Source: Phormidium tenue FACHB-1050
GTDB lineage: Bacteria; Cyanobacteriota; Cyanobacteriia; Pseudanabaenales; Pseudanabaenaceae
DNA length: 64,000 bases
Direction: 5' to 3'
Assembly (NCBI RefSeq): GCF_014696925.1
Contig: NZ_JACJQY010000019.1
Coordinates: 29,293-93,292 of the forward strand
Shown here piece after piece: positions 6,235-57,254 of the stretch (positions are counted from its first letter, which is position 1; each line of letters begins with the position of its first letter). Below the pieces are notes generated by a model that was not told where the DNA came from, did not search any database, and worked only from the letters and a program-made list of their open reading frames with translations. The position numbers and the translations under genes are program-made.

Positions 6235-6350
6235 TATAGCAATGTAAGTTTTGCTTAGGACATAAAACCCAAAAGATGAGTGGCGGCGCTTCGCGCCGCC
6301 ACTCATCTTTTGGGTTTTGATTTGTCCCAGCTATCTCTTGCGTTGCTATA
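6235..6350. mobile_element. Family A hairpin element
   Basis: TATAGCAATG... AAACCCAAAAGATGAGTGGCGGCGC-TTC-GCGCCGCCACTCATCTTTTGGGTTT ...GTTGCTATA. Confidence 0.75.
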
Positions 6351-20730: not shown

Positions 20731-20771
20731 CACCTAGAGTTTTTGAGGTTGTGTAATTCTTAAATGGGTTC

Positions 20772-20887
20772 TATAGCAATGCAAGAGATAGCTAGAACAA
20801 ATCAAAACCCAAAAGATGAGTGGCGGCGCAAAGCGCCGCCACTCATCTTTTGGGTTTTATGTCCTAAGCAAAACTTACATTGCTATA
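20772..20887. mobile_element. Family A hairpin element (opposite orientation to 6235)
   Basis: TATAGCAATG...AAGATGAGTGGCGGCGC-AAA-GCGCCGCCACTCATCTT...ACATTGCTATA. Confidence 0.75.
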
Positions 20888-29723: not shown

Positions 29724-29821
29724 TATAGCTGTCGCCATTCTTGTTAGGACATAAAACCCAAATAGTGTGAGGCGGCGCTTCGCGCCGCCTCACACTATTT
29801 GGGTTTTTGACTACAGCTATA
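29724..29821. mobile_element. Family B hairpin element, one end shortened
   Basis: TATAGCTGTCGCC...AAACCCAAATAGTGTGAGGCGGCGC-TTC-GCGCCGCCTCACACTATTTGGGTTT...CAGCTATA. Confidence 0.7.
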
Positions 29822-36523: not shown

Positions 36524-36619
36524 TATAGCAAAGCAAGTTTTGCTTAGGACATAAAACCCAAGAATCGAGTGGCGGCGCGAAGCGCCGCCACTCGATTCTT
36601 GGGTTTTATAGCTGTCGCC
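36524..36619. mobile_element. Hybrid A/B hairpin element
   Basis: Left end TATAGCAAAGCAAG (A-like), core GAATCGAGTGGCGGCGC-GAA-GCGCCGCCACTCGATTC, right end TATAGCTGTCGCC (B end). Confidence 0.65.
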
Positions 36620-48750: not shown

Positions 48751-49380
48751 CTATGCAAGAACTATATGCCGATCGCGATCGACTTTTAACCATCCTTCAT
48801 CTTGTAATAATTTCATCGCTCTAGTAACAGTGACGCGGGTGCTGCTAATGGCACTGGCAAGGTGCTGGTGCGTAAGACGCACAGTCAGACGAGTTCCACC
48901 GTCAACAGGGATGCCAACTTCTTGCTTAAGCAGAAGCAGGATTTGGCGGAGTCGCTCTTCCACCCGCTTATTACTAACTAGTGCTAGCAAAGCTTCCGTT
49001 TGCTGAAGACGACGATTGAGATGTTGCAAAATGCCATGATAAAGCTGTGGTGATTGTTCTAGCTCAATCAAGGTAAACCGCATCAAGTCAACATCTGACA
49101 GGGAAATCGCTTGATAAGGTTCAAGATTTGTTAATGGCAACCCAAAGGGCATTGCTTGTACTGCAAAGCCAACCAAAACTTCATCGCCTGACGGATGCAA
49201 GGTATTTAGTTGCACAACTCCACGACAAACTACCCATACTTCATGCGGATACATGGGAATAATTTGTCCACTCTTGTAAGTGTGCATGGTGCGACCGCGA
49301 TAAATTTCTTCGAGCGATCGCCGCCAATCAGTTACAGAATGGGTGGAGTTAAGATCAAAACTTGAGAACGTATATGTCAT
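48751..49380 (-). CDS. Crp/Fnr family transcriptional regulator
   Basis: cNMP-binding-like fold plus HTH: LTVRLTHQHLASAISSTRVTVTRAMKLLQDEGWLKVDRDRHIVL. Confidence 0.88.
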   Translation of the reverse strand: MTYTFSSFDLNSTHSVTDWRRSLEEIYRGRTMHTYKSGQIIPMYPHEVWVVCRGVVQLNTLHPSGDEVLVGFAVQAMPFGLPLTNLEPYQAISLSDVDLMRFTLIELEQSPQLYHGILQHLNRRLQQTEALLALVSNKRVEERLRQILLLLKQEVGIPVDGGTRLTVRLTHQHLASAISSTRVTVTRAMKLLQDEGWLKVDRDRHIVLA

Positions 49381-49466
49381 AAAAGCGTGAGGTACACATT
49401 AGTGATCCTATGTGTTTCTCGACACTATCGGGTTAAGCCTAGTTTATCTAATCAATAAATTCTTCT

Positions 49467-49577
49467 TAAATTCTTGCAGAGTGTGAGGCGGGGCAAAGCC
49501 CCGCCTCACGCTTTTTATTACTATTAAATTCTTGCAGAATGTGAAGCAGTGCTTTGCACTGCTTCACACTTTTTATT
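49467..49577. repeat. Tandem pair of 53-bp hairpin units with compensatory stem differences
   Basis: Units 49467..49519 and 49525..49577 share flanks TAAATTCTTGCAGA and CTTTTTATT; stems GTGAGGCGGGGC-AAA and GTGAAGCAGTGC-TTT are both perfectly paired. Confidence 0.95.
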
Positions 49578-50655
49578 TAATAACTAGCGTAATGTTGTTA
49601 TCTTTGGGTGGAATATCGCTAAATGCTTCAAAATATTCTTTAGCTACTGGCGGAAAGTTAGGGAACTCAAATTTGGCATCACCATCAGCAATATATGCCC
49701 AAAAGTAACGAAGTTGTGGCGTTAGGGTTTCGGCTAACTCTACAGGCAAATTTAGAGGTGGGTGAGTAAGCAACCTGAGGACAAACGGATGGGAATGATT
49801 TCCCATCCATTCCCGTGAGAAATGTAGTAGATCAGATTGCTCAGGAATCGACTTGACTCGAAAAGATTCTATTTCTAAGCGATCGCCTGCTGCATCAGAA
49901 ATGTAATTGAGAACACGGTAGGGGTGAGGATAGCTCACCAGAGAGCCTGTGGTGATGTCATAGAGGTCGTAGCGATCGCTATAAGCAATATCCTGCACAT
50001 GGAGATGTCCAGTAAAGACTAACTTCACATTTGCCTGATGTAAAACTTTGCATAGCCGCTCATTATTTCCCAACATATAGCGCTTACCGAGAGCATTGCG
50101 GGACTGATCATGCATATGTTCCAACACATTATGATGAATTGTCACCAAGTTCAATTCATAGTCTTGGTTTTCAAGAACCGATTGCAACCAAACTAACTGC
50201 TCATCATCGATCCAGCCAATTTGTTGTCCATCAGCATCAAATTGATTAGAGTTCAATCCAATTAGACGAACTCTCGGTAATACTTCGCATTCATAGTAGA
50301 GTTTATTTGGTTCGCTAAGTCCATGCTCAAAGCCAAAACTAGTATAGTGAGGAGAGAATTTATCAAAGGTATCGATCCTTGGTACGTCATGGTTTCCCGC
50401 AATCACATAGACGGGATAAGGAAGTTTCGCGAGTCGCTCCGATAACCATTGATGATTCTCAGGTTCTCCATGCTGTGTGAGATCCCCTGGTAAAAGTAGA
50501 AAGTCTAAATCTAGATTAGCAAGGTGTGACAGTACTTCTTCAAATGCGGAGATGCTGTACTCAACAAGATGAAATCGCGCAGGATGCTGCCAAATCGTAT
50601 GGGGCAATGCGATATGCAAATCGGAGACGATCGCAAATTTAAACTTAAGTGCCAC
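49573..50655 (-). CDS. Metallophosphoesterase (CpdA-like)
   Basis: FAIVSDLHIALP, LLPGDLTQHGEPENH, VIAGNHDVPR, VTIHHNVLE, LVFTGHLHVQD. Confidence 0.92.
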   Translation of the reverse strand: MALKFKFAIVSDLHIALPHTIWQHPARFHLVEYSISAFEEVLSHLANLDLDFLLLPGDLTQHGEPENHQWLSERLAKLPYPVYVIAGNHDVPRIDTFDKFSPHYTSFGFEHGLSEPNKLYYECEVLPRVRLIGLNSNQFDADGQQIGWIDDEQLVWLQSVLENQDYELNLVTIHHNVLEHMHDQSRNALGKRYMLGNNERLCKVLHQANVKLVFTGHLHVQDIAYSDRYDLYDITTGSLVSYPHPYRVLNYISDAAGDRLEIESFRVKSIPEQSDLLHFSREWMGNHSHPFVLRLLTHPPLNLPVELAETLTPQLRYFWAYIADGDAKFEFPNFPPVAKEYFEAFSDIPPKDNNITLVIK

Positions 50656-55781: not shown

Positions 55782-56963
55782 TTAGGCAGGAGTAGAGAAG
55801 CGGATTTTCAGATAATCATCTTCCATTTTTGCGCCAGAAGTTTGGAGAACAGATAGAGCTTGAGGTAATACTAAATTACGGCGATGATTGCCAATGCGGA
55901 TGTTTAGCTCGTCACCAGTCTTCGTTAACTCAATCTTCTCTTTCGGCACACCTGGTAAATACAACTCCAAACGATATTGCTTATTCTCTTCCACCACCCG
56001 CATTGTATTTTCTTTGTAATAGACCTGCGAAGGATCTTCGTTACCATAGAGAGTCTCTTTTAAGCGCTCTAAAGCCGCAATCCCACACATCTCTTCAGCA
56101 TAAAGTGGAATCTGCTTAATGGGCAGAGGATGGAAATCACGATGAATTTGTTCACAATATTGCTTCTGATTGTCCTTCCAAACCTTAAAGAATGGATCTT
56201 GCACTTCTTCAGGAATAATCCGATTAGCAATCACCATATCTGTAGCAACATTGTAGAGACTGAGATAGGAATGCGCCCTCAAGGACTCATTAATTACCAT
56301 CTTTTCAGGATTAGTTACCAGTCTGACGGTTGTGGTGGTGTTATCTGTGAGGATTTTTTCTAAAGCTTCTAATTCTTCATAGAACTCATAGGGAGCATCC
56401 ATTACTTCTTTGTTAGGCAATGAGAAACCAGTCACTCGCTTAAAAATAGGCTCAAATACAGGACTAAGAACCTGAGCCATGCCCTGTAACGGTTTATAAA
56501 ACTTCCGCATATACCAACCTGCTACTTCTGGCAGAGATAGCAGTCGGAGAGCTGTCCCCGTAGGTGCAGAGTCAATCACTAATACATCATATTCCTTTTC
56601 GTCATAGTGACGCTTCACACGCACTAAACCAAAAATCTCATCCATTCCTGGCAAGATTGCCAATTCTTCAGCCTGAACACCCTCCAGCCCTCTAGCTTGA
56701 AGAACTTCACTAATGTAGCGTTTAACCGCCCCCCAGTTACCTTCTAGCTCGCGTAAGGCATCTAACTCTGCTCCCCAAAGATTAGGGCGTACTTCCTTAG
56801 GATCATGTCCTAGCTCGACCATAAAGCTATCGGCGAGAGAGTGAGCAGGGTCAGTGCTTAGTACTAGAGTTTTATAGCCTAATTCAGCACAGCGTAAGCC
56901 TGTAGCTGCGGCGACAGACGTTTTACCAACGCCGCCTTTTCCTGTCATTAAAATGATACGCAT
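55782..56963 (-). CDS. ArsA/GET3 family ATPase with C-terminal HSP20-like domain
   Basis: [43 protein letters not shown]-terminal [29 protein letters not shown]. Confidence 0.93.
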
Positions 56964-57138: not shown

Positions 57139-57254
57139 TATAGCTATAGCCACCTGTATCAGGGCAAATCAAAAACCAGATAATGTGAGGCGGCGCAAAG
57201 CGCCGCCTCACATTATCTGGTTTTTATGTCCTAACAAGAATGGCGACAGCTATA
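57139..57254. mobile_element. Family B hairpin element
   Basis: TATAGCTATAGCC...GGCGACAGCTATA flanking ATAATGTGAGGCGGCGC-AAA-GCGCCGCCTCACATTAT. Confidence 0.75.

Follow-up and report, generated by a model that had tools for sequence, protein, structure and literature searches.

Two 53-base units stand in tandem between a metallophosphoesterase gene and the leader of a Crp-like regulator gene in the window, meaning the whole 64-kb stretch of DNA analysed here (Table 1). Both units are present verbatim in the window, start 58 bp apart and consist of a 15-pair stem and a 3-base loop within common flanks. As DNA they fold far better than shuffled sequences, with z of -6.8 for unit 1 and -5.5 for unit 2.

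Table 1. Positions of the features discussed, numbered within the window.
Feature	Position	Strand	Details
Crp-family regulator gene	48751..49380	-	PF13545; downstream of hairpins
Leader of Crp-like regulator gene	49381..49466	-	83-97% identity in 19 relatives
Unit 1	49467..49519	+	Flank TAAATTCTTGCAG; tail CTTTTTATT
Unit 1 stem	49480-49494 / 49498-49512		Loop AAA, 49495-49497
Unit 2	49525..49577	+	Flanks as in unit 1
Unit 2 stem	49538-49552 / 49556-49570		Loop TTT, 49553-49555
Metallophosphoesterase gene	49573..50655	-	Pfam PF00149, 3.3e-18; stop codon abuts unit 2
ORF, putative ArsA/GET3-like ATPase	55782-56963	-	C-terminal extension similar to a small heat-shock domain
Copies of the miniature element (about 105-117 bp)	20771-20887, 6264-6318, 29753-29807, 36551-36609, 57171-57225

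The first-pass annotation had described adjacent paralogous units with 42 of 53 positions identical, three compensatory base-pair changes in the core stem and a loop that goes from AAA to TTT. A recount gives exactly this identity. The 11 differences comprise three two-sided stem changes, the three loop bases and two one-sided changes. All three two-sided changes keep Watson-Crick pairing and fall at pairs 3, 5 and 8 from the loop (GC/TA, GC/AT and GC/AT, respectively), and the one-sided differences leave T-G at pair 13 in unit 1 and A-C at pair 14 in unit 2. Six random substitutions on a 15-pair stem would make exactly three complementary pairs with a probability of ~2.5e-5, and chance does not explain the unit pair. 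The loop change was likewise confirmed. Complement and reverse complement are indistinguishable for AAA/TTT, and it is other loci, with TTC/GAA, TAC/GTA and GCA/TGC, that identify the change as reverse complementation. The units are rightly called paralogous, and a like pattern is also found between species at many single-copy hairpins.

An intrinsic terminator serving a neighbouring gene was rejected at the unit pair because its T-run and the two neighbouring genes are on opposite strands. Separately, 12 bases of the leader beside the Crp-like start codon (49381-49392) are the exact complement of part of the outer arm of unit 1 (49504-49515). A regulatory switch based on this complement was set aside, as relatives largely retain the leader side but not the hairpin side, which is not conserved in either G005 or G022.

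The orthologous site and the hairpins of the genus

The closest relatives found by protein search of named genomes are Pseudanabaena records. The leader of the Crp-like gene is conserved among congeners and anchors the orthology of the site. Most of the Pseudanabaena relatives examined carry a hairpin of varied sequence shortly 3' of the metallophosphoesterase stop codon. The close relatives G005 and G022 each have a single hairpin at the site and share the flank TTAAATTCTTGCAGA; their stems carry changes of their own, and both loop orientations occur between them. In G022 the loop is TTT, and the stem has T-A at pair 3, A-T at pair 8 and an A-C mismatch at pair 14 in common with unit 2. The G005 hairpin has the loop AAA and a broken inner stem, and its outer stem is matched but two-sidedly different from that of G000. 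No single simple order of events fits the stem states of these four hairpins. In more distant congeners the hairpin at this place is very different in sequence or is missing.

The unit pair is two of thousands of intergenic hairpins in Pseudanabaena. Requiring arms of at least 12 bases with at most one mismatch, 41 hairpins were found in the window and none in each of three shuffles. A sample of 2.3 Mb from nine congeneric genomes contains 1,124 perfect or near-perfect hairpins, or ~0.5 per kb (range 0.37-0.80 per kb), after exclusion of a masked N-run stretch of G002 that holds none of the orthologous sites compared below. Their density is 2.6 per kb in non-coding DNA versus 0.025 per kb in ORFs of at least 100 aa, and 96% lie outside long ORFs. 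It peaks between convergent genes at 4.5 per kb, versus 1.8 per kb between divergent genes, and the median distance from hairpin to stop codon is 28 bases. The loop is exactly three bases long in 857 of 1,123 hairpins (76%). Perfect inverted repeats cover 13-27 bases per kb in the genus, compared with a bacterial mean of 3.14 bases per kb over 118,019 genomes (PMC13155455), although the details of counting may differ.

In all 26 of 26 genomes of the genus the pattern GGCGCNNNGCGCC is found in 94-794 copies, against 0-7 of the reversed control, and other genera of the same family have 0-4 copies. Separately, 53-124 copies were seen in G027, G030, G025 and G074, which belong to unrelated cyanobacterial genera; most loops at these copies in G027 read TAC or GTA, both orientations being found.

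Some of the hairpins are enclosed by miniature elements with asymmetric ends, TAGGACAT...ATTTGTCC. Many dispersed copies of a miniature element, about 105-117 bp long, are found in the genus; it has a long perfect hairpin between the ends TAGGACAT / GATTTGTCC. A second miniature family, seen at sites in G002 and G021, has ends like AGTAGCTGGGCGCAATTAAA...TTTAATTATGCCCAGCTACT that contain GTAG, as in REP elements, and hairpin loops of GCA/TGC. At one site (L009 vs L010), a hairpin intact in G021 is apparently split in G002 by a hairpin-bearing insert (AACTCCAAAAGTAAAGAA...).

Rfam covariance models applied to the 64-kb window at gathering thresholds returned tRNA only, with no match for the hairpins. 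Loss of SbcCD as the cause of palindrome persistence was rejected, as SbcD-family genes are present throughout the genus. A literature search found no description of these Pseudanabaena hairpins, which does not prove that none exists, and the set appears to be undescribed so far.

Loop and stem changes at orthologous hairpins

Flank-anchored comparison between congeners yielded 161 independent orthologous hairpins with ~94% flank identity. The genomes compared are distinct species, and no event was caught in a single step. Three-base loops are found at 126 of the 161 sites, of which 51 are unchanged, 43 are the exact reverse complement and 32 are otherwise altered. At least two base changes are needed in 38 of the 43 reverse-complemented loops, where point mutation predicts 0.0015. 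Among the 54 loops differing at two or more bases, these 38 are exact reverse complements, one is a complement only and none is a reverse. Random re-pairing of loops gave a mean of 8.6 and a maximum of 20 over 10,000 trials. In 16 of the 46 sites with all 12 inner pairs unchanged, the loop is nonetheless inverted. Hairpins with unique arms also flip their loops (6 of 23), as at position 73646 of G000, where TAC has become GTA in a unique-arm hairpin with an unchanged stem and 97% flank identity. Arm homogenisation together with spacer inversion is the signature of template switching (PMC8604942), and conversion of the spacer to its exact reverse complement is what 38 of 54 loops display.

Recombination through a cruciform, or an invertase specialised for the arms, would likewise yield exact loop inversion with unchanged arms. 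Genes for HUH (Y1) transposases, which could possibly act on the hairpins, do occur, with PF01797 matches in G000 and most of the congeners searched and none in G007. However, inversion by itself leaves the two-sided stem changes unexplained, and the inverting loops belong to hairpins whose arms are quite unlike in sequence, which disfavours a sequence-specific recombinase. An origin of this kind is very improbable.

The stems contain 56 two-sided Watson-Crick changes in the 12 pairs nearest the loop, where 2.8 are expected, a ~20-fold excess across the 161 sites. The arms thus change together beyond what independent substitution predicts, which is the second part of the template-switch footprint. 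The numbers of sites with zero, one, two and three two-sided changes are 119, 31, 8 and 3, which is near Poisson and indicates that these changes are mostly single.

Selection for an RNA hairpin, such as a terminator or a stabiliser of mRNA 3' ends, could produce two-sided changes through stepwise compensatory substitution. The position of the hairpins, mostly intergenic, densest between convergent genes and close to stop codons, is in keeping with this, as is the presence of CTTTTTATT within the unit tails. However, such selection does not predict exact loop inversion, and a strand signal of RNA is absent. When mismatches are oriented by transcript, G-T and A-C number 68 and 71, respectively (p = 0.87), with no preference for wobble pairs. 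Purine-rich loops make up 196 of 360 (p = 0.10), and loops oriented by the single gene reading in are close to 50:50 in orientation, with TTC 55 and GAA 62, AAA 42 and TTT 34, and TAC 17 and GTA 13. T-rich tails follow 43 of 480 hairpins on the transcribed side versus 36 of 480 on the other side, giving no sign of a U-tract bias in the direction of the gene, and the T-run of the unit pair itself is on the wrong strand for both neighbours. Transitions are proportionally fewer among two-sided changes (31 transitions and 25 transversions) than among one-sided ones (109 and 47), which disfavours a route through G-U intermediates; bacterial data cited in PMC8604942 showed template switching to favour transversions. 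Selection on the folded form, one of two explanations offered by the first-pass annotation, is therefore disfavoured by the lack of strand bias in mismatches, loops and T-tails and the lack of transition enrichment, and an RNA origin of the stem changes is very unlikely.

The changes are unevenly placed along the stem. The ratio of two-sided to one-sided changes is 26:137 at pairs 1-8 and 30:26 at pairs 9-12 (p = 1e-7). Single mismatches within genomes number 31, 30, 27, 21, 17, 11, 6, 1, 2, 5 and 3 at pairs 3 to 13, so that unresolved mismatches are rarer at 9-13 pairs from the loop than at 3-8. Mismatches at pairs 1-2, which the scan enters as longer loops, and those beyond pair 13, which are inflated by chance extension, were not used. 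This footprint fits a fold-back primer in which loop-proximal pairs anneal uncopied and outer pairs are copied. The one-sided excess near the loop could be partly due to a mutation hot spot in the GC-rich core. This is the weaker alternative, as the overall rate of changed pairs differs little along the stem, at about 13% for pairs 1-6 and 9% for pairs 7-12. The contrast between near and far pairs is significant only in hairpins whose inner arm recurs elsewhere; the 'unique' class gives p = 0.39 on few events. Two-sided changes also differ between the classes, with 9 in 576 pairs in the 'unique' class versus 47 in 1,354 in the recurring-arm class. Given these differences, copying between dispersed hairpins may contribute, or the two classes may be of unequal age.

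If dispersed hairpin elements exchanged sequence or re-inserted in either orientation, both arms would be altered and the loop flipped. Many hairpins form the centre of miniature inverted-repeat elements, inner arms are common to other hairpins at 103 of 126 sites, and certain hairpins occur in only one of the two congeners compared. The inner arm of unit 1 is one base from the dispersed core AGTGTGAGGCGGCGC and that of unit 2 three bases away; allowing up to two differences, the sampled DNA holds 24 matches to the former and none to the latter. Judged by this similarity, a dispersed hairpin may have been copied into unit 1, and copying from dispersed copies may thus have had a part in the unit pair. 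Against exchange as the general cause, unique-arm hairpins flip their loops as well, two-sided changes are mostly single, and the two-sidedly altered arms have no match elsewhere in 32 of 41 cases, with only part of each genome sampled. Loop orientation is scrambled even inside a homogeneous family with asymmetric ends, where, once the ends are set in a single orientation, the loop reads TTC in 11 cases and GAA in 9. Exchange among dispersed elements is accordingly considered unlikely, with somewhat more in its favour than the RNA and recombinase accounts. Because unique hairpins flip, two-sided counts are near Poisson and most changed arms lack a sampled donor, copying in place is taken to be the general process.

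Probable arm-to-arm copying and its meaning

Copying of one hairpin arm from the other during replication best explains the matched stem changes and flipped loops of the units, and is probably the correct explanation. The first-pass annotation made such arm copying its second proposal, which gains support from the inversions in place with unchanged stems and from the excess of two-sided changes. The units would be two tandem copies of one intergenic DNA hairpin from the dispersed Pseudanabaena set, the pair having presumably arisen by tandem duplication. In replication the polymerase would occasionally leave its template for the other arm of the hairpin and later return, either because the nascent strand folds back or by a jump to the opposite strand. 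A mutation in one arm would thereby be copied into the other, giving a two-sided change, or be erased. A switch across the centre would leave the 3-base loop reverse-complemented, and the pairs near the loop, acting as the annealed primer stem, would escape copying. We infer that replication template switching, rather than another route of copying between DNA arms, is the agent. Both intramolecular and intermolecular routes may act, since inversion was assigned to an intermolecular switch and arm copying to either in PMC8604942. Template switching would be unusually frequent in these Pseudanabaena hairpins.

The mechanism is already known, and the hairpin set is a new and unusually rich instance of it. 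At short inverted repeats of Saccharomyces cerevisiae, arms are likewise homogenised and spacers exactly inverted, among them 3-base spacers that read TTC/GAA between unchanged arms (PMC8604942). In wild yeasts ten spacer inversions were recorded within coding sequence, whereas in Pseudanabaena 43 of 126 sampled orthologous loops are inverted, in mostly non-coding DNA. In RNA genes, simultaneous multiple compensatory changes and loop inversions have been read as template-switch footprints (PMC8794818); those hairpins belong to rRNA and other RNA genes under structural selection, unlike the Pseudanabaena hairpins, which bear no sign of selection as RNA. The quasipalindrome hot spots of Escherichia coli (PMC7202029) are a bacterial case in which imperfect inverted repeats are perfected during replication. 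That work concerned reporter loci and drug effects, and measured neither a genome-wide hairpin family nor loop flips. Small inversions in chloroplast DNA, such as that of trnH-psbA, also involve palindromes in the non-coding DNA of a cyanobacterium-derived genome; they occur in an organelle, and the likeness drawn here is one of inversions (PMC2903610). REP/REPIN palindromes associated with HUH transposases are likewise high-copy, intergenic and bacterial (PMC3116915, PMC6006769), but neither the REP tetranucleotide rule nor the transposase link is established for the Pseudanabaena hairpins.

A wider picture can be offered tentatively, and it may well prove wrong. The genus would carry several thousand short palindromes that are continually rewritten from arm to arm at a raised rate. 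The loop would be a two-state mark that flips freely, and the six to eight pairs nearest to it an uncorrected primer stem, with either the palindromes themselves or an unusual replication and repair background as the driver.

Compensatory stem changes normally count as proof that an RNA is functional. In the Pseudanabaena set many stems covary with no strand signal of RNA, and covariation tests would for this reason call false RNAs in such genomes. The hairpin set is also a natural genome-wide record of bacterial template switching. Thousands of sites can be scored for loop state, for unresolved mismatches and for distance from the loop, and from such counts the rate of the process, its step length and its strand bias become directly measurable.
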